In this document: piece by piece, positions 25,642-45,921 of the stretch
How positions within the stretch are numbered: position 1 is the stretch's first letter
Layout of the letters: each line of letters starts with the position of its first letter
NCBI GenBank assembly: GCA_030429235.1
Contig: JAUIDB010000005.1
Location: 1-64,000, forward strand
Source: Thermoanaerobaculia bacterium
Lineage (GTDB): Bacteria > Acidobacteriota > Thermoanaerobaculia > Multivoradales > JAIOJS01
Direction: 5' to 3'
DNA: 64,000 nt
Position numbers and translations under genes: made by a program
The notes under the pieces: model-generated
Seen by the model: only the letters and a program-made list of their open reading frames with translations
What the model was told of the DNA's origin: nothing
The model's database searches: none

Positions 25642-25671
25642 GGGTCCGGACTCGATCGATTCCGGGGACCC
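25642..25671. terminator. Possible bidirectional hairpin between convergent genes
   Basis: GGGTCCGGA and TCCGGGGACCC can pair (six plus three base pairs with a GG bulge) around a ten-base AT-containing loop. It lies between the pilZ stop and the convergent metalloprotease stop. No T-run follows, so termination is uncertain. Confidence 0.3.
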
Positions 25672-26975
25672 TAGGGGAGCGACCAGGCCTGCGTATCCCC
25701 GGATTCGAAACCGTCTTGGAAGATCGGGGCCTGACGCCAGGCGACGACGGTGGAGGCGGTGGTGTTGAGCGTCAGATGGTTGTCGGCGGCATTCGGCTGC
25801 CCGTCCGGGATCCCCATCGGCTCCGAGGTCGAGGGATGCAGGACGTTCGGGTTGGACCAGTAGAGTGAACGCGTACACGGCGACCCCGAACAGTTGTTGT
25901 ACGACATCACAGTACGCCAGACGCTGGAGGGTGAGTAGTAGCCGTGGTTGAAGGCGAAGGGAGATCCGGTGGTCGAGTCGGCATTGTAGTCGTGACGGGC
26001 GGACTGAATGTGGCCCATCTCGTGAGCGAAGGTGTAGTTCGGAGAGATGCAGCCCTCACCCGTGACGCAGAAGGCGTACTCCTCGAAGGCCGGGGAGACC
26101 GTGGTCATGATGTAGGCGATGCCGCACCCACCGGTTCCGGCGATCAGCTTGACGATGTCCGCCCCGTACTCGTCCCGCCAGTCGTGAACCTCGTCGAGGA
26201 ACCCGTCGTTCTTGATGCGGAGGCGGTTGCGATCGGTCGAAATCGAGCCGCTGTCGGTGTAGGTCACGAAGGCGGTGTGGACCAGGTTGACTCGCAGATC
26301 GACATTGCTGTTCATGTACGAGAGGTTGGTTTCGGTAACGCCGAGGTCGATCCGGTTTTCGATGTCGAGGACGGTGCCTCCCGCGGAGTTGATCGCCTGT
26401 TGGGTGTAGACGACCATCAGGTCGAAGGTAGGGATCCCTCCTCCTAGAGTCGAGGCTGCGGTCGACCGTGACGCCACCGCTGCATCGAGCGGCTTCAACT
26501 CGTCGTCCGAGACGGGGGTTGGCTCCTCCTCTCGCAGCTCGGGAGAGTTCTCGTCGATCTCCTGCACCACGTGCTGTCCTCCGGGAAGTCGGCGGAGAAC
26601 GAAGAGTCGGCCATCGAAGCGAATCGTGCCGGTAGCCGCTCCCTCCCGTGAGACCAGGACGACGGAGCCACTGGGGTCGCCTTCGATGGAACCGATCCAA
26701 CTCGTGCTCCCCGTCGGGTTCGACCAGACATGCTGGTTCCGGCTGACGAGTTGTTCACCAGACAGCGCGAAGGTGGCGAGAGTGATCGCGGAGTCGGGTT
26801 CCGCGATCAGGTGAGTCGCCACCTGCACCGGGATCTCGTCGACGACGTACGCTGGCACGTGGCGACGCGTTTCCGCCGCAGGATCGAACGAGAGCAGATC
26901 GGGAGTAGCACTCCAGCCGGCCACCGGGAGAAGGGCGGCGACCAGGACGAGCGAGACGAGACGGTAGCGGGACAT
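25671..26975 (-). CDS. Secreted zincin metalloprotease (reprolysin/M12-like) with C-terminal GFESGD tag
   Basis: The 434-residue preproprotein has a signal peptide (YRLVSLVLVAALLPVAGWSA) and a propeptide to ~155. The catalytic domain contains the zinc site AHEMGHIQSARHD, an HExxHxxxxxH variant with Ser where Gly is usual, and a Met-turn-like TVMSYNN. It ends with FQDGFESGDTQAWS, a short C-terminal tag seen on many secreted proteins of soil bacteria. GAGGA seven bases before the ATG sets the start. It lies 14 bp downstream of ubiD on the same strand, with no clear functional link. Confidence 0.87.
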   Translation of the reverse strand: MSRYRLVSLVLVAALLPVAGWSATPDLLSFDPAAETRRHVPAYVVDEIPVQVATHLIAEPDSAITLATFALSGEQLVSRNQHVWSNPTGSTSWIGSIEGDPSGSVVLVSREGAATGTIRFDGRLFVLRRLPGGQHVVQEIDENSPELREEEPTPVSDDELKPLDAAVASRSTAASTLGGGIPTFDLMVVYTQQAINSAGGTVLDIENRIDLGVTETNLSYMNSNVDLRVNLVHTAFVTYTDSGSISTDRNRLRIKNDGFLDEVHDWRDEYGADIVKLIAGTGGCGIAYIMTTVSPAFEEYAFCVTGEGCISPNYTFAHEMGHIQSARHDYNADSTTGSPFAFNHGYYSPSSVWRTVMSYNNCSGSPCTRSLYWSNPNVLHPSTSEPMGIPDGQPNAADNHLTLNTTASTVVAWRQAPIFQDGFESGDTQAWSLP

Positions 26976-37733: not shown

Positions 37734-40700
37734 ATGCGAACTGGAGGATCCCGGGTTCGGGTAGCGGCGTGGTTTCTTGCGGCGTGGTGCGGTCTGGGTC
37801 TGTTCGCGACGCCCGCCGTCGCCTACGACCTGGTCGTGACCCCGGCCGGAGCGACGTTTTCGGAAGGGGTGGGGCAAGCCGAGTTCACGGTGACTCTGGC
37901 CGGCTGTACCTTTCCCGAGACCGACGTGCAGATCGCGGTCCAGCTGGTCGGTCTCACGGCCGCGATCGGGTCGGACTTCGGGCCACCGAGCGCCAGCTTT
38001 CTGCTGATCGGTGACAGCGCGTCGCAGGCGCAGTTTTCGGTGCCGATCATTCAGGACACGATGGCCGAAGGCAACGAGACCTTCGAACTCAATCTGGACG
38101 CGACCAAGATGATCCTCGATTGTGGCAATCAGGGACCCCTGCCTCCCTTGACGCCGGTGTTTCGGACGCTGGTGACTATCGTCGACGACGACGTAGTCGT
38201 GCCGAACCTGTCGATCGACGATGTGGCGGTGGTGGAGGGTGACTCCGGAACCGTGGGTGCCTCGTTTACCCTCTCGTTGTCGGCGCCCACCGTCGTCGAC
38301 GTACTCTTGACCGCCGCCACCGCGGACAACACCGCGACTGTGGCGGACTCGGACTACCAAGCGACCACCGAGACGCTGCTGATACCACCGGGACAACTCA
38401 CCAGGCAATTCGTGGTGCCGGTGATCGGAGACGTTCGGATCGAGGGAGACGAGATCTTCTCGGTTCTGGTCAGCGAAGTGGTCGGCGCGAACCTGGTGGA
38501 CGGAGTGGGGGTGGGAACCATCATCGACGACGACCAGATGGTGCAGCTGCCGGGGATCGGAATCGAGGGAGTGGAGGTGCTCGAGGGAGACGTCGGAACC
38601 ACGACGGCGACCTTCCGGGTGTTCCTCGAAGAGCCGGTCGAAGTCGAGGTCACGGTCGATGCGTCGACCGTCGAGGGCACGGCCACCGCGGGCCTCGACT
38701 TCGAGCCCCGGTCGTCGAACGTCCTGATTCCAGCCGGGGCGACCGAGACGATGTTCGAGGTCCAGGTCATCGGTGACCTACTGGCCGAGGGCGACGAGAC
38801 CTTCCGAGTGGATCTGAGCAACCCCCGAGGAGCGGAGATTCTGACCGACGCCCAGAGCGCGACAGGAACCATCGTCGATGACGACGAGGACGTTCCACCA
38901 CCTCCTGGTCTCCCAGCCCTGTCGATTCGGGACACGTCGCTCGACGAGGGCGACGCAGGTTCGCGTCCGGCACGCTTCCAGCTCAGCCTGCAGCCCGCTT
39001 CGGAGACCCAGGTCGCAGTCAATTTCCGCACGGTCGACGGATCGGCGCGTGCCGGAGAGGACTACCAGCAAACCGCCGGCACGGTCTTCTTCAGCCCGGG
39101 GCAGACCCGTCAGACGTTGTCGATCGACGTGCTGGGGGATCGATTGGTCGAGCCGGACGAGCGGTTCTTCGTGCAGTTGGAGAACCCGATGGGAGCGGTC
39201 CTGGGTGACGCCAGTGGACGCGGTCAGATCCGTGACGACGACGCGTCGGCACCCCCGGCCCAGATCGGTCTCCAGGGGAATGAACGTCGGCCCGCGGCCC
39301 CGGGATCCGACCAGGTCGTCGAGGTGTTGATCACCCGCGACGGCGCTCCGGCTCCCGGAGTCGAGGTGACCTGGGGAGTCGAAGGTGACGGGACCCTGGT
39401 GGGTGGCGACAGCTCGACTTCTGGGGAGGACGGGGTGGCAACGATCACGGTGCGACTCGGTTCGACCCCGGGTCCGGTGGTCGTGGTGGCCAGGGCGCCC
39501 GGAGGGGCGCAGGTCCAGGTGACCTTCGACGTCAGTCGCCCCCTGACCGGTCTCTTCCCCGAGTCGACGGGGGAGTATCGTCTGGCGATGGTCCTCGAGG
39601 GCGCTTGCTCGGAGCGACGCCTCGGCGGACTCTGCGACTATCTCTTCTCGCTCGATGACACCGAAGCGAGGGCAGCCCTCACCGAACTCACGCCACGAGA
39701 AGTGGCGAGTATGGAGCGGCTGGCCCTGGAGGGGGCGCGCTCCCAACTCAGCAACATCGAACGGCACCTCGCCGGTGTGCGCAGGGCTGGCCAGCTGGGG
39801 GGGAGTCGGGTCGCCCTCGAACTCGGTGGACGTTCCTGGGAACCCACGGCCCTCTGGCGGGTGGCTCGCGGCGAGTCCGCCTTGGAGCTTCCTGGTCTGG
39901 AAGCCGCTCTGAGCCTGAGGGGCAGCGAATCGTCCGGCCAACGGGCGGCTGACGACGAGTCTGACCTGGGGAGGGATGGAAGAACGGCGATCTTCGCCAG
40001 CGGCCGGCTGTCGACCGGTGAGCGGGACGCCACGGGTCGCGAGGCCGGTTTCGAGTTCGACACGACCGGTTTTACGCTCGGCTTCGATCACCGACTGGGG
40101 CCGGGCCTGGTCCTGGGCGGAGCGGTCGGCTACCTCGACAGCGGGAGCGACTTCGGTCGCGACGATGGCAGCCTCGACGTCGAGGGGTACTCGGTCAGCG
40201 GTTTCCTGACGCGGTACGGAGAACGGGCCTACCTCGACCTGGTGACCTCCTGGGGAAGCAACGACTACACCCTGGAGCGACACGTCGACCTGCCTCGAGC
40301 CTTTGGTGGTGCCAACCGCCATTCCCTGCGGGGCGCGCCGAGCGGAGACCTGCTTTCGGCTTCGCTCTCGGTCGGTGCCGATTGGGGTGGCGCGGCCAGC
40401 TTCGGCATCTTTGGCGGTTTGAGTTGGATCGACGGTTCGATCGACGGCTACGTCGAATCGGGCGGTCCCGCCGCCCTGGTGCTCGCAGAGCAATCGGTCG
40501 AGTCCCTGCTGGCCGATGCCGGCGTCGAGTTCACCTATGCGGCCAGTTTCGAGTGGGGTGTTCTACTCCCTCAGGTGCGTCTCTCCTACCTCAACGAGTT
40601 CGAGGACGATGCGCGACTCTTGCGGGGCCACTTCGCAGCCGACGATCGTCGCCTCGACTTCGTCCTGCCCACCGAGGGACTGGACCGTAGCTACCTCGAG

Positions 40701-40826
40701 GTCGGAGTCGGTTTCACCGCTACCTTCAAGCGGGGCCGGTCCTTCTATCTCTTCTGGGAAACCGACCTGGAGCGGGACGACCTCGAGTCGAGCCATCTGA
40801 CCGGGGGCTTCCGGCTGGAGCTGTGA
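37734..40826 (+). CDS. Calx-beta repeat autotransporter
   Basis: The 1030-residue outer-membrane protein has a signal peptide (VAAWFLAAWCGLGLFATPAV). Four Calx-beta domains span ~33-500, each with the calcium motif (EGDSGT, EGDVGTTTA, EGDAGSRPA) and a closing DDD (TIVDDD, TIIDDDQ, TIVDDDED, IRDDDAS). A bacterial Ig (Big_1-like) domain lies at ~505-600 (APAPGVEVTWGVEGDGTLVG), a helical linker at ~610-690, and an autotransporter beta-barrel over the last ~280 residues, ending FRLEL. It is probably a Ca2+-binding surface protein. Its stop overlaps the GTG start of the kinase-caspase gene, making it the first gene of a three-gene operon. Confidence 0.88.
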   Translation: MRTGGSRVRVAAWFLAAWCGLGLFATPAVAYDLVVTPAGATFSEGVGQAEFTVTLAGCTFPETDVQIAVQLVGLTAAIGSDFGPPSASFLLIGDSASQAQFSVPIIQDTMAEGNETFELNLDATKMILDCGNQGPLPPLTPVFRTLVTIVDDDVVVPNLSIDDVAVVEGDSGTVGASFTLSLSAPTVVDVLLTAATADNTATVADSDYQATTETLLIPPGQLTRQFVVPVIGDVRIEGDEIFSVLVSEVVGANLVDGVGVGTIIDDDQMVQLPGIGIEGVEVLEGDVGTTTATFRVFLEEPVEVEVTVDASTVEGTATAGLDFEPRSSNVLIPAGATETMFEVQVIGDLLAEGDETFRVDLSNPRGAEILTDAQSATGTIVDDDEDVPPPPGLPALSIRDTSLDEGDAGSRPARFQLSLQPASETQVAVNFRTVDGSARAGEDYQQTAGTVFFSPGQTRQTLSIDVLGDRLVEPDERFFVQLENPMGAVLGDASGRGQIRDDDASAPPAQIGLQGNERRPAAPGSDQVVEVLITRDGAPAPGVEVTWGVEGDGTLVGGDSSTSGEDGVATITVRLGSTPGPVVVVARAPGGAQVQVTFDVSRPLTGLFPESTGEYRLAMVLEGACSERRLGGLCDYLFSLDDTEARAALTELTPREVASMERLALEGARSQLSNIERHLAGVRRAGQLGGSRVALELGGRSWEPTALWRVARGESALELPGLEAALSLRGSESSGQRAADDESDLGRDGRTAIFASGRLSTGERDATGREAGFEFDTTGFTLGFDHRLGPGLVLGGAVGYLDSGSDFGRDDGSLDVEGYSVSGFLTRYGERAYLDLVTSWGSNDYTLERHVDLPRAFGGANRHSLRGAPSGDLLSASLSVGADWGGAASFGIFGGLSWIDGSIDGYVESGGPAALVLAEQSVESLLADAGVEFTYAASFEWGVLLPQVRLSYLNEFEDDARLLRGHFAADDRRLDFVLPTEGLDRSYLEVGVGFTATFKRGRSFYLFWETDLERDDLESSHLTGGFRLEL

Positions 40827-42754
40827 GCACTCGCGCATTCCGCGATACCTATGAAGTCCTCGCCAAGATTGGCGAGGGCGGGATGGGGGCGATCTACAAG
40901 GTTCGCCACCGACACCTGCAGCAGGATCGCGTGATCAAGATCATGCGTCCGCAGGTCTCGACCGACGCCGACTTCGAAGCCCGGTTCCTACGAGAGGCCC
41001 AGCTCGAGGCAACCCTGCAGCACCCCTACATCGCGCAGCTCTACGAGTTCGAGATCGCCCCCGAGGGCTCCGCCTACATGGTGATGGAGTTCATCGAGGG
41101 CGTGACGCTACGGCAGATCCTCGAGATTGCGGGTCCACCGAGTCTGGAGTTCTGCCTCTTCGTAGCCGACCAGGGACTCGAGGCTCTGGCCTACCTGCAC
41201 AGCTGTGGTTTCGTCCACCGGGATATCTCGCCCGACAACATCATGGTGGGTGTCGGGCCTCAGGGGGAGCCACTGATCAAGGTCATCGACCTGGGAATCG
41301 CAAAGAAAACTGGTGAGTCGCGCGAGCAGCAGATCACGCGCACCGGGACCTTCATCGGCAAGGTTCAGTACGCTTCACCCGAGCAGTTCAGCACGACTCC
41401 GATCGACCATCGCAGCGATCTCTACTCGTTCGGTATCGTGCTCTACGAGTTGATGACGGGGGTGTATCCGATCCTGGGGCACGATACGAACTCCCTGATC
41501 GGCGGACACCTCTTCAAACCCCCGGTGGCGTTCGAGGAGACCGACCCTCGTGGCGAGATCCCAGTAGCCCTGCGCGATCTGGTGATGAAGAGTCTGGCGA
41601 AGCAGCGGGAAGACCGGTTTGCCGCCGCCAGCGAATTTAGAGAGGCCATCCTGCCGCTCGCGGCGGGGGCCCAACCTCGGGGTGAAGCCCTGCGCCTCAT
41701 CGACCTTTGTCGCAGCGAGCCGGACCTGGTGCCGACGGGCGCCGACATCGACATCTTCGGCACCGAGGAAACGCGGCTGCGCTCGCAGAGAATCGGACTC
41801 GAGACCGAAGCGACGGTGGTGGTCGGCGATCCGACCGTGCGTCTCGAGCGCGGCCGGTCGAAGACCTGGGGCTGGCTGGTGGCGGCTCTGTTGGCGGTCG
41901 TCCTGGTCGCGACCGCGTACCGTACGTGGTGGCTGGATGCGGATCCCGCGGTCGATCCGATGGCCAACCTCGAACTGACGTTGCCGCTTCCCGCGGATCT
42001 CGACTTCGGTCGCTACTACGCGCTCGTGATCGGCAACGACGACTACCGCTTCTTGCCGCGGTTGCGGACCGCGGTGGCCGACGCGCGGGCAGTGGCGGAA
42101 GTGCTCGAGACCCAATACGGCTTCGAGGTGACCCCTCTTTACGACGCCACTCGCCACCGGATCTTCTCGGAGTTGGAGGCGTTTCGGGATCGCTTGGGAC
42201 CGACCGACAACTTCCTCGTCTATTACGCGGGCCACGGCCAGATCTACAGCGAGGACAGCCTCTACTGGCAGCCGGTCGACGCCGACGTCGATTCGACGGT
42301 CAACTGGTTGGCCACCGACGACATCAACCACGAACTCAAAGGTCTGCCCGCCCGCAACGTCCTGGTGATCGCGGACTCGTGCTACGCCGGGGCCCTGGCC
42401 GGGGCGGTGACCGAAGAGTTTCCGCCCACCGAAGACCGACTCGCCTACGTTCGCCAGAAGCTCGAGCGATCGGGTCGGGTCGTGCTCGCTTCGGGAAACG
42501 AGCAGCCCGTGGCCGACGCCAGTGCCGAAGGTGTCCATTCGGTTTTCGCCAACGTCCTTCTGCAGCAGTTGCGCGACAACGATACGGTGCTGGATGGCAA
42601 GCTGCTCTACGCTCGCCTCGTCGACGAGGTGGAACGGAGGGCGGCCGCCCTGGCGCTCGAGCAGCGCCCGGTCTACGCGCCGTTGGATAGTGCAGGTCAC
42701 CAGGGAGGAGAGTTCTTCTTCGTCCCCACCAACCTCAGAGAGGCCAACTCATGA
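40823..42754 (+). CDS. Ser/Thr kinase fused to a membrane helix and a caspase-like (C14) protease domain
   Basis: The 643-residue protein has an N-terminal Hanks kinase (~10-275; KIGEGGMGAIYK, FVHRDISPDNIMVG, DLGIAKK with DLG for DFG, ASPEQFS). A linker leads to one membrane helix (~345-365, GWLVAALLAVVLVATAYRTW). The caspase-fold domain (~395-640) starts YYALVIGNDDYRFLPRL, with catalytic His471 in YYAGHGQ and Cys520 in IADSCYAGAL. The topology would put the kinase inside and the caspase in the periplasm. GTGA overlap upstream and ATGA overlap downstream indicate tight co-translation. The role is unknown; regulated proteolysis or death-like signalling is inference. Confidence 0.93.
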   Translation: MSTRAFRDTYEVLAKIGEGGMGAIYKVRHRHLQQDRVIKIMRPQVSTDADFEARFLREAQLEATLQHPYIAQLYEFEIAPEGSAYMVMEFIEGVTLRQILEIAGPPSLEFCLFVADQGLEALAYLHSCGFVHRDISPDNIMVGVGPQGEPLIKVIDLGIAKKTGESREQQITRTGTFIGKVQYASPEQFSTTPIDHRSDLYSFGIVLYELMTGVYPILGHDTNSLIGGHLFKPPVAFEETDPRGEIPVALRDLVMKSLAKQREDRFAAASEFREAILPLAAGAQPRGEALRLIDLCRSEPDLVPTGADIDIFGTEETRLRSQRIGLETEATVVVGDPTVRLERGRSKTWGWLVAALLAVVLVATAYRTWWLDADPAVDPMANLELTLPLPADLDFGRYYALVIGNDDYRFLPRLRTAVADARAVAEVLETQYGFEVTPLYDATRHRIFSELEAFRDRLGPTDNFLVYYAGHGQIYSEDSLYWQPVDADVDSTVNWLATDDINHELKGLPARNVLVIADSCYAGALAGAVTEEFPPTEDRLAYVRQKLERSGRVVLASGNEQPVADASAEGVHSVFANVLLQQLRDNDTVLDGKLLYARLVDEVERRAAALALEQRPVYAPLDSAGHQGGEFFFVPTNLREANS

Positions 42755-44352
42755 CCCAACCACACGTCTGCTCCACCCTGTTGCGGGGTTCGATCCTCCT
42801 CACGGCCGGTGCCGTTGCCCTGTCTGGCCTGGTCTTCGGGGTAGGCAACGACCCCCTGTTCGCCGTTCCTCCGAGCGAAGAGGTTGGCGAAGCCGAAGAC
42901 TTCCTGGTCGTCGACTGCCTGTTGCCGGGTAAGGTACGGCGCCTGGGGCGGCGCCAGACCTACCTGGCTCCGCGCCGTGCCCTGCGAACCACTGCGATCG
43001 ACTGTCGGATTCGGGGCGGTGAGTACACCGCCTTCGACCGTGCAACCTACGAATCGTCGCTCGAGGTATGGCTCGCGGGGGCGCGGGAAGGAGATTCCGA
43101 GGCGCAGTTCTACGTTGCCCAGATCTTCGAGAAGGGGCTGGGACGCGAGCCGGACTATGAGAGTGCCGCCAACTGGTACCGCAAGGCCGCCGAGCAGGGG
43201 CACAGTGGAGCGCAAACCAGCCTCGGATTCCTCTACGAGGTCGGTCTCGGAGTGGAGGCCGATCCAGAGGAGGCGTTGCGTTGGTACCGGCAGGCGTCGG
43301 GACTCGACGAGGACCTGGTGGTGCTGGAGGCGCCGGAGTACGAAGAGCTGCTCCAGCGGCAGCGGGAACTGGAGGAGCGCAACCGCCAGATCGAGGAGCT
43401 CGAACGCCAACTGCGAGAGACGGAGGCGACCCTGAGTGCCAGCCGTGAGGCGCAGGAGCAGGATCGCGAGGCCCAGGTCGCGCTCGAGGCGGCGCTGGAG
43501 AAGCTGGAGACCGAACTGCTCGGCCGGCGAGCCGACGTGCAGCGGCTCGAGACCGAGGTCGAGAAGTTGGCGACGGTGGAGCGCGAGGGGGAGCCGGTGG
43601 CCCCCACCATGCCGATCGACGCGGCCGGAGACGGGGCGGTCGACTTCGGTCCCTACCACGCCCTGGTGATCGGCAACGGCGACTACCGCTCGCTGCCGGC
43701 CGTCGACGGAGCGCCGCGAGAGGCGCGCGAACTCGCTCGGCTGTTGGAGGAACGGTACGGCTTCGAGGTGCGGCTGCTGCTCGACGCCACGCGCTACCAG
43801 ATCCTGGAGGCACTGAACCGTCTTCGCGAGGACCTTACCGAACGAGACAATCTGGTCCTCTTCTACGCCGGGCACAGCGAGGAGGATGAGTCGGGTGCCC
43901 GGGGCTGGTGGAAGCCGATCGATGCCGAACCCCAGAGCCGAGCCAACTGGATCTCGCACCGAGTGTTGGCCGACCACTTGGAGGTGGTTCCGGCCAAACA
44001 CGTGTTGGTCCTGGCCGAGGCGGCGTACGCCGCGACCCTGACTCGGTCCTCGATCCCTCAGCTCCCGCGCGGCATGAGCCCCGAGCGCCGGCAGCAGTAT
44101 CTGCGCGAGATGGCCGAGCGGCGCACCCGTCTGGTCCTGGCCGCGGGCGACGCCGGCACCAATCCGAACCGTCGGTTCACCGGGATGTTGATCGAGGCGC
44201 TGGCGCAGAACGAGGCCGTGCTCGAGGCGTCCAGCCTGTACCGCAACCTCAATCGCTCCCTGGCGGACGAGGGAGAGCCGGTGGAGTTTGCGCCCATTCG
44301 GTGGTCACGCCACGAAGGGGGCTCGGACTTCTTCTTCGTACCGCGGCCCTGA
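42751..44352 (+). CDS. Sel1-repeat, coiled-coil protein with inactive caspase-like domain
   Basis: The 533-residue exported protein has an N-terminal hydrophobic signal (LLTAGAVALSGLVFGVG) and Sel1 repeats at ~105-185 (AQFYVAQIFEKGLGREPDYE, ALRWYRQASG). A long coiled coil spans ~195-275, and a caspase-like domain runs ~298-530, starting YHALVIGNGDYRSLPAV. His375 is kept (FYAGHSEEDE), but at the cysteine position the sequence reads LAEAAYAATL, so Ala425 replaces Cys and Glu replaces the preceding Asp. It is probably a pseudo-protease partner of the kinase-caspase encoded just upstream. The ATG overlaps that gene's stop. Confidence 0.9.
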   Translation: MTQPHVCSTLLRGSILLTAGAVALSGLVFGVGNDPLFAVPPSEEVGEAEDFLVVDCLLPGKVRRLGRRQTYLAPRRALRTTAIDCRIRGGEYTAFDRATYESSLEVWLAGAREGDSEAQFYVAQIFEKGLGREPDYESAANWYRKAAEQGHSGAQTSLGFLYEVGLGVEADPEEALRWYRQASGLDEDLVVLEAPEYEELLQRQRELEERNRQIEELERQLRETEATLSASREAQEQDREAQVALEAALEKLETELLGRRADVQRLETEVEKLATVEREGEPVAPTMPIDAAGDGAVDFGPYHALVIGNGDYRSLPAVDGAPREARELARLLEERYGFEVRLLLDATRYQILEALNRLREDLTERDNLVLFYAGHSEEDESGARGWWKPIDAEPQSRANWISHRVLADHLEVVPAKHVLVLAEAAYAATLTRSSIPQLPRGMSPERRQQYLREMAERRTRLVLAAGDAGTNPNRRFTGMLIEALAQNEAVLEASSLYRNLNRSLADEGEPVEFAPIRWSRHEGGSDFFFVPRP

Positions 44353-44373: not shown

Positions 44374-45921
44374 TCAACGCTTGCGTTTGCGGCGGACGGA
44401 GAGTTCTTTGAGCGCCTCGATCGGTCGGCGGTCGGGGGAGAGGAGTCGGATCGCTTGCCGCAGATGGTCTTCGGCGGCGTCGAAGTCCAGTCGGTTCGAC
44501 TCGACCAGTCCGAGGTAGTAGAGCGCGGTGCCACAACCGGGGTCGATGCGGACGGCTTCGCGCAGATCGTCGTAGGCGGCGTCTCCGTACTGCATGGGTG
44601 ACATCCGATACCGGCAGTAGGCAGCTTCGGCCCGGTAGAGGGCGTTCTGCGGGTCGACGTCGGCCGCAAACTGCAGAAACTCCAGGGCGCGAGAGAAGTT
44701 TTCGCCCTGCAAGAACTCGAGCCCCTTCTTGTACTGCATCGCAGAATCCAGGAGATCGGTCGCGATCTGGGGCTGCGTGGGGCGGTTCGCTCGGTCGCGC
44801 TGCAGGTTGCGCCGCCGTTCGAGCAGGATCCCTCGCTGCTCGGTGTTGGCGAGTTCCGCGTACGCCTCCGCACCCGCGAGGAAGAGGTTTCGGGCCTTCT
44901 CGGCAACGCCTCCCGACAGCTGCGCTTCGACGATCCACGGGGCGAACCGTCGGGCGAATCGGAGGTAGCCGCGCACGATCGCCTCGGCGTCGGCTTCTTC
45001 GGGGAGTTCGAGAAGATCGAAGGCGTCCTTCCGCTTGTACGAGAGGAAGGACTCCATGATGCGCCGTTCGAGCCCCTCCAGTTCGTCTTGGTTCAGGGGG
45101 CCGGCGGAGGGCGGATGCAGGATGACCTCGGTCGATTCGACCATCGACCTCGGCTGGCTGGCGGCGGCGGATTCCAGAGCCTTCTCCGGTGCGATGACGC
45201 CGAGGATGGACAGCGCGTAGATCAGGCGACCCAGAGATTCGGATGCGATGCCACTGGTCAAGGCCAGTTGGTCGATCGGTTGCGCTGTGCGGTAGAGGGA
45301 CTCGACGAGGGTCTGGGCGACTTTGTCGAGTTTCAGTTCGTCACGCCCGAAGGGTGGCGAGGGGTTGGAAGCCAGTGGTTCGCCCAGCAGCGGACGGATC
45401 CCGGTCATGATCTGGTCCGGGCGGGTCAGCTTGCGGATGCCGGTCAGGATCAGCTGAGGGGTCCGCACCTGGAGCGTGGTGTCGGGGTCGCCCGCCAAGG
45501 GGTGGATCTCGAAGGTCCCCGCCGCCCAGCCGAAGGGATCCAGGAGCTTGCGGGCCAGGTTGGACCGCAACTGGCGGTACAGTTCCATCGGATCCAGAAG
45601 GTCGCGGTCCAGCAGGATCTCCCCGAGCGGCACCTCGCGCCGTAGTGACTCGGCGAGGAGTTCTTGCAGTTGGCCGTCGTCGAGTTTGCCGACGCTCACC
45701 AGGTAGCGACCGAGGGTCTCGTGGACGAGATTGGAGCGGCAGTCGATGGCGACGCCCTCGAGCAGGAAGATCTGCTTCTCGACCGGTTTCCTCTGCAGGC
45801 GGATCACCGCGGTGTGGCGGCCGCGGGCGAGTGCCGAGAGCAGGACCGGAAACGGAATCTCGGTCAGGTCTCCCTGCCGCAGGTCGGCGATCTCGGCGAA
45901 ACGTTCGACCGTGGGGATCAT
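44374..45921 (-). CDS. DUF4388/PATAN-type protein with degenerate J-domain and TPR repeats
   Basis: The 515-residue cytosolic protein has an N-terminal DUF4388 (PATAN-like) domain (~15-130; LTEIPFPVLLSALARGRHTA, IFLLEGVAIDCRSN). A linker precedes a J-domain-like segment (~300-375): AFDLLELPEEADAEAIVRGY, then RFARRFAP where HPD should be, and AYAELANTEQRGILLERRR. TPR repeats end the protein. DUF4388/TPR proteins occur with signalling systems in Myxococcota and Acidobacteriota, but their roles are mostly unknown. It converges with the caspase operon (21-bp gap) and lies ten bases after truD on the same strand. A TATGAT box sits nine bases before its ATG. Confidence 0.82.
   Translation of the reverse strand: MIPTVERFAEIADLRQGDLTEIPFPVLLSALARGRHTAVIRLQRKPVEKQIFLLEGVAIDCRSNLVHETLGRYLVSVGKLDDGQLQELLAESLRREVPLGEILLDRDLLDPMELYRQLRSNLARKLLDPFGWAAGTFEIHPLAGDPDTTLQVRTPQLILTGIRKLTRPDQIMTGIRPLLGEPLASNPSPPFGRDELKLDKVAQTLVESLYRTAQPIDQLALTSGIASESLGRLIYALSILGVIAPEKALESAAASQPRSMVESTEVILHPPSAGPLNQDELEGLERRIMESFLSYKRKDAFDLLELPEEADAEAIVRGYLRFARRFAPWIVEAQLSGGVAEKARNLFLAGAEAYAELANTEQRGILLERRRNLQRDRANRPTQPQIATDLLDSAMQYKKGLEFLQGENFSRALEFLQFAADVDPQNALYRAEAAYCRYRMSPMQYGDAAYDDLREAVRIDPGCGTALYYLGLVESNRLDFDAAEDHLRQAIRLLSPDRRPIEALKELSVRRKRKR

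Follow-up and report, generated by a model that had tools for sequence, protein, structure and literature searches.

The inner-membrane Ser/Thr kinase PpkA of the T6SS is switched on by TagR or RtkS, which act through its periplasmic domain (PMC6082577), in the TagQRST-PpkA pathway of Pseudomonas aeruginosa and the RtkS-PpkA pathway of Serratia. The operon described here resembles these pathways in its predicted make-up: a Ser/Thr kinase crosses the inner membrane and carries a domain in the periplasm, and it is paired with a regulator in the periplasm and a sensor in the envelope. The likeness extends to a PP2C phosphatase partner in many of its relatives, and some gammaproteobacterial copies have TagF-PP2C and TssM as neighbours within T6SS clusters. 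The present set differs, however, in having caspase folds both as the periplasmic domain and as the regulator, and in having an autotransporter in the outer-membrane place. Bacterial C14 proteins have Sel1 as one of their most frequent partner domains (PMC3501461, 2012), and the orthocaspases and metacaspases with Sel1 share their fold and dyad with our proteins. A text search of PMC3501461 found no autotransporter or kinase partner of caspases, and the HMM of that study was built solely from sequences with both catalytic residues. Pseudo-orthocaspases (PMC6426788, 2019) keep the caspase fold after loss of the dyad, as our dead copies do, and are described chiefly from Alphaproteobacteria and Cyanobacteria; the abstract gives Tyr/Ser for the dyad positions. 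Our set is unlike them in that the Cys alone is replaced by Ala, Val, Leu or Ser (one row also lacks the His), and in that the Thermoanaerobaculia set has a live caspase on the partner kinase. A search of open-access papers returned no description of the autotransporter/kinase/Sel1-caspase set. The components are known and the geometry of the pathway has a precedent in T6SS regulation, and there is a fair chance that the set forms a class of its own.

The window, i.e. the whole stretch of 64,000 nucleotides that we analysed, contains three plus-strand ORFs joined by 4-base stop/start overlaps (Table 1). The gene order is identical in the sister species (G001, locus L036), with 4-base overlaps at both joints. 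A promoter scan did not find a sigma-70-like site, and the terminator-like sites in the same scan showed no excess over chance. The host genome (G000, 4.85 Mb) encodes three C14 proteins, two of them in the operon. The third is a stand-alone caspase on contig C86, where its gene is adjoined by two ORFs (L061 3624-7348) related to the reprolysin-like metallopeptidase inside the window. The DUF4388-TPR gene is convergent with the operon and ends 22 bases past it, and other genes take its place in the sister species.

Table 1. Features of the operon and of its surroundings, in window coordinates
Feature	Position	Strand	Basis or remark
Gene 1, outer-membrane autotransporter, 1030 aa	37734..40826	+	Pfam Calx-beta, PF03797 barrel
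Gene 1/gene 2 stop/start overlap, GTGA	40823..40826	+	Also a 4-base overlap in the sister species (L036)
Gene 2, Ser/Thr kinase + caspase, 643 aa, GTG start	40823..42754	+	Pfam, dyad alignment, AlphaFold
Gene 2/gene 3 stop/start overlap, ATGA	42751..42754	+	Also a 4-base overlap in the sister species (L036)
Gene 3, Sel1/coiled-coil pseudocaspase, 533 aa	42751..44352	+	Pfam, dyad alignment, AlphaFold2
DUF4388-TPR gene	44374..45921	-	
Reprolysin-like metallopeptidase	25671..26975		

The gene 1 product has a hydrophobic N-terminus, followed by four Calx-beta stretches within residues ~31-510 (Pfam, 164 bits), each of which closes with a DDD motif in the translation. A Big_1-like domain with a sub-threshold Pfam score (~520-600) and a conserved pre-barrel region (~600-745) lead to the C-terminal PF03797 beta-barrel at residues 754-1006 (152.8 bits against a cut-off of 26), the sole such barrel found in the host genome. 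The four DDD-ending stretches make a role of Ca2+ possible in the present species. Calx-beta and Ca2+ are not a conserved feature of the wider set, and the idea of a Ca2+-type surface protein as a general part of the system is not supported, since the passengers vary among relatives (L113 has HYDIN/ASH Ig domains, and most members of family f9 lack a Calx-beta match) and evolve fastest.

The kinase domain of the gene 2 product spans residues ~9-278 (Pkinase, 150 bits), and its residues K39, H132, D134, N139, D156 and G158 are invariant across 34 sequences. It has DLG where DFG is usual, with the catalytic Lys, the HxD Asp, the Asn and the DxG Asp all in place. The caspase domain covers residues ~393-643 (Peptidase_C14, 83.8 bits), and His471 and Cys520 occupy its dyad positions. 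All nine kinase-caspases have exactly one hydrophobic segment, which lies between the kinase and the caspase and whose flank towards the kinase carries a net positive charge. In gene 2 this corresponds to a transmembrane stretch at ~349-371, a helix in the AlphaFold model. The kinase domain is therefore predicted to be cytosolic and the caspase domain periplasmic, with topology here and for the Sel1-caspases read from hydropathy rather than from a trained predictor. Matches to a Ser/Thr kinase query number more than 50 in the host genome, at about 60 places. The nearest relative of the gene 2 kinase domain there (50%) is on contig C70, with no caspase or Sel1-caspase close by.

The gene 3 product begins with a predicted hydrophobic export signal (~10-30) and has no hydrophobic helix further on. 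A conserved N-terminal domain that includes Cys56 and Cys85 (~45-112), two Sel1 repeats (~113-190; Pfam, 69 bits) and a coiled coil (~195-278) precede a caspase fold at ~298-533 (Peptidase_C14, 55.8 bits), in which His375 is kept and the catalytic Cys is replaced by Ala425. The AlphaFold2 model has pLDDT >90 over most of p20. One of the closest solved folds is that of MALT1 paracaspase (Z 22.2, rmsd 2.4, 190 residues aligned), although the identity is ~20% and the two proteins have no common partners. A hydrophobic stretch ahead of the first conserved domain is above threshold in 64/93 Sel1-caspase ORFs, which makes export likely in general, if not in every member. The preliminary description of the locus had read it as overlapping genes for a Calx-beta autotransporter, a kinase with an active-looking caspase, and a Sel1/coiled-coil caspase-like protein without the Cys; the joints and all three assignments hold up, the caspase fold of gene 3 being supported by the C14 match and the MALT1 alignment. 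c-FLIP is a dead caspase that controls a live one, caspase-8, and its functional likeness to the present pair is by analogy only.

The dead domain is under strong purifying selection. Between the window and the sister species, where synonymous sites are near saturation and pN/pS is usable as a ranking only, the ratio is 0.12 for the dead p20 of gene 3 (90% identity) vs 0.40 for the live p20 of gene 2 (68% identity), with 0.09 for the N-terminal domain and 0.16 for the Sel1 part of gene 3, 0.26 for the kinase, 0.38 for the barrel and 0.65 for the Calx-beta part. The dead p20 is more conserved than the live p20 in 25/36 genome pairs. The pairs with G076 are mostly reversed, the live p20 being the more conserved.

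Our analysis favours, with moderate confidence, a trans-envelope signalling operon in which a periplasmic pseudocaspase adaptor governs the kinase and its outward-facing protease. This proposal builds on the operon, the recurrence of the set, the predicted topology, the pattern of catalytic residues and the purifying selection on the dead domain; from these we infer a physical interaction, cleavage by the protease, its substrate, and both what the signal is and which way it travels. The autotransporter would expose a passenger specific to the lineage, Calx-beta in this case, at the cell surface, as a sensor or a client. The gene 3 product would be exported to become a periplasmic adaptor, made up of Sel1 repeats and a coiled coil together with a caspase fold that is dead as a protease and would serve for binding, and the kinase would cross the inner membrane with its kinase domain in the cytosol and its dyad-bearing caspase in the periplasm. 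An event at the surface or in the envelope would be passed to the pseudocaspase, which would pair with or restrain the periplasmic caspase of the kinase; this contact would alter the dimerisation of the kinase, and thereby phosphorylation inside the cell, and/or let periplasmic proteolysis loose. Since the geometry is shared with PpkA, the exported pseudocaspase may by analogy act on the periplasmic caspase of the kinase. The predicted position of the kinase in the cytosol, with both caspase-type domains beyond the inner membrane, agrees with the arrangement across the envelope that had been suggested earlier.

We collected Sel1-caspases from 18 genomes in a class search and used the best 80 of 161 relatives in a search of named genome contigs, where loci were picked by the Sel1-caspase alone. 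The hosts include Thermoanaerobaculia, many Gammaproteobacteria, Alphaproteobacteria, Myxococcota, Desulfuromonadales, Brocadia and Rokubacteria. In each of the 43 loci flanked by 5 kb or more on both sides, a barrel, a kinase or both occur within 5 kb of the Sel1-caspase gene (barrel 30, kinase 30, both 17, neither 0). They span Thermoanaerobaculia, Gammaproteobacteria, Brocadia and Rokubacteria and are not independent, with several per genus (e.g. Arenimonas) and six that duplicate places of the class search. As the compared genomes have only 1-6 autotransporter barrels each, this proximity is far above chance. The three genes co-occur far beyond the host genome, which supports the preliminary description. 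Counting against our reading, the kinase-caspase is on one contig and the barrel and Sel1 pair on another in the genomes of family f6. The Sel1-caspase marks a wider module that is apparently undescribed.

An alternative hypothesis is that the autotransporter is processed or chaperoned by the periplasmic caspase (in relatives, by the Sel1-caspase), with the kinase regulating only expression or flux. The barrel gene often directly adjoins the Sel1-caspase gene (~100 bp), even without a kinase within 5 kb, and the conserved pre-barrel region would suit such surface-protein maturation. In many gammaproteobacteria, however, the kinase adjoins the Sel1-caspase and the barrel is absent, and the repeated loss of the Cys speaks against an essential cleavage, so we regard this explanation as unlikely.

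Some of the halophilic gammaproteobacteria carry the kinase and Sel1-caspase genes within T6SS clusters (L074, L075, L077, L082, L083, L085 and L107); PP2C is fused to TagF in this group and adjoins TssM/IcmF, and in several genomes the same contig carries the sheath gene VipB (PF05943) ~22 kb away. VipB is present in G076 and in many gammaproteobacterial carriers. It was not found in the host genome or in 16 carrier genomes of the same order that were tested, and we reject a T6SS role in the host genome on this ground.

Every kinase-caspase retains both His and Cys. Among Thermoanaerobaculia with a kinase-caspase, the Cys of the Sel1-caspase has become Ala, Val or Ser in all nine readable genomes (G000, G001, G014, G018, G022, G033, G038, G044 and G076; in G038 only the caspase half of a putative kinase-caspase is on the contig, the kinase half being beyond its end). 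G016 has a kinase-caspase and is outside this count as its Sel1 gene is cut by the contig end. The Cys is kept in 8/8 Thermoanaerobaculia genomes without a kinase-caspase (families f4 and f9). A live Sel1-caspase, a caspase-less kinase and a barrel are encoded in G344, an Acidobacteriota genome outside Thermoanaerobaculia, which we presume to show the older arrangement. The ancestral state probably had a live caspase on the Sel1 protein and none on the kinase; in the present lineage the periplasmic end of the kinase would have acquired a caspase domain belonging to the same family, and the Sel1 copy would have lost its Cys.

In a tree of 93 caspase domains, the kinase-caspases form a single clade (SH-aLRT 96) inside the Sel1-caspase family, as do the dead Sel1-caspases of Thermoanaerobaculia (98). 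The joint clade that corresponds to duplication of the neighbouring Sel1 copy as the source of the kinase's caspase has a support of 10. The gain of the kinase-caspase and the loss of the Sel1 Cys are each one event in Thermoanaerobaculia, and their association is therefore one evolutionary coincidence retained in the descendants. The tree requires three Cys losses, in Thermoanaerobaculia, in Halieaceae and in a Halomonadaceae/Ectothiorhodospiraceae group. The gammaproteobacterial ones (at least two events; L074, L075, L077, L080, L083, L090, L095, L096 and L098) replaced Cys by Leu, Val or Ala, and L080 has lost the His as well. We considered whether a second caspase offsets the loss in these bacteria. 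The dead copy is the sole C14 protein found in six of the nine genomes (G149, G151 and G154-G157), which means that Cys loss needs no second caspase; G150, G152 and G153 have additional C14 genes beside it. In Halieaceae, Billgrantia and Aquisalimonas no C14 protein other than the dead Sel1-caspase was found, so the domain is of use even without proteolysis. The active/inactive pair noted at the outset thus stands for every readable Thermoanaerobaculia genome with a kinase-caspase, but it is not obligatory, as these three lineages have the dead copy only.

The same lineages bear on a regulated self-killing or anti-phage device, with the caspase as executioner, the kinase as switch, the Sel1 pseudocaspase as inhibitor and the autotransporter as bystander. 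Caspases elsewhere act in cell death, and our two domains share C14 with the EACC1-associated defence caspases (NCBIfam NF047832) and match that model weakly, at 95.6 and 42.6 bits; a PADLOC caspase model gives 34 bits for gene 3. Both EACC1 scores, however, are under the cut-off of 140, the caspase is predicted to be extracytosolic, the barrel is a recurring partner, and several lineages retain the system with no active caspase found, all of which leaves such a device quite improbable in our judgement. That the genes are functionally unrelated neighbours, by chance or in a loose transcription unit, is hardly credible even with more than 50 kinase-domain matches in the host genome, being already contradicted by co-occurrence across phyla at 43/43 flanked loci, by the 4-base overlaps retained in the sister species and by the single autotransporter barrel of the host genome.

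Returning to the signalling operon, we speculate, more tentatively, that it may belong to a widespread and undescribed class of systems that signal from the outer membrane through the periplasm to the cytosol. Such systems would consist of an autotransporter, a transmembrane Ser/Thr kinase and a Sel1 (pseudo)caspase; the protease site would have moved between partners in evolution, and the dead caspase would have become the element that transmits the signal. The set would add a new type of input for transmembrane bacterial Ser/Thr kinases. Little is known of what bacterial caspase homologues do, and the set offers them a likely place, the periplasm, and constant partners in the form of a kinase and a barrel in the outer membrane. 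Because its active sites occur in nature in live, dead and relocated versions, protease and non-protease roles are separable by experiment, and the carriers include cultured hosts (Halomonas, Billgrantia, Nitrococcus, Arenimonas and Hahella).

Clustering of the neighbourhoods revealed a PP2C gene in 18 loci and an alpha/beta-hydrolase-like gene in 29. The latter adjoins the kinase or the Sel1-caspase gene (L042, L043, L082, L100, L113 and 24 more); it has a lipoprotein-like N-terminus in L082 and L113, and the L042 copy has no Pfam match. Contig C9 of G017 carries two Sel1-caspase copies ~26 kb apart (L047 and L050), with two autotransporter barrel genes nearby, and one of these copies is in frame with a long upstream extension, giving 1193 aa.
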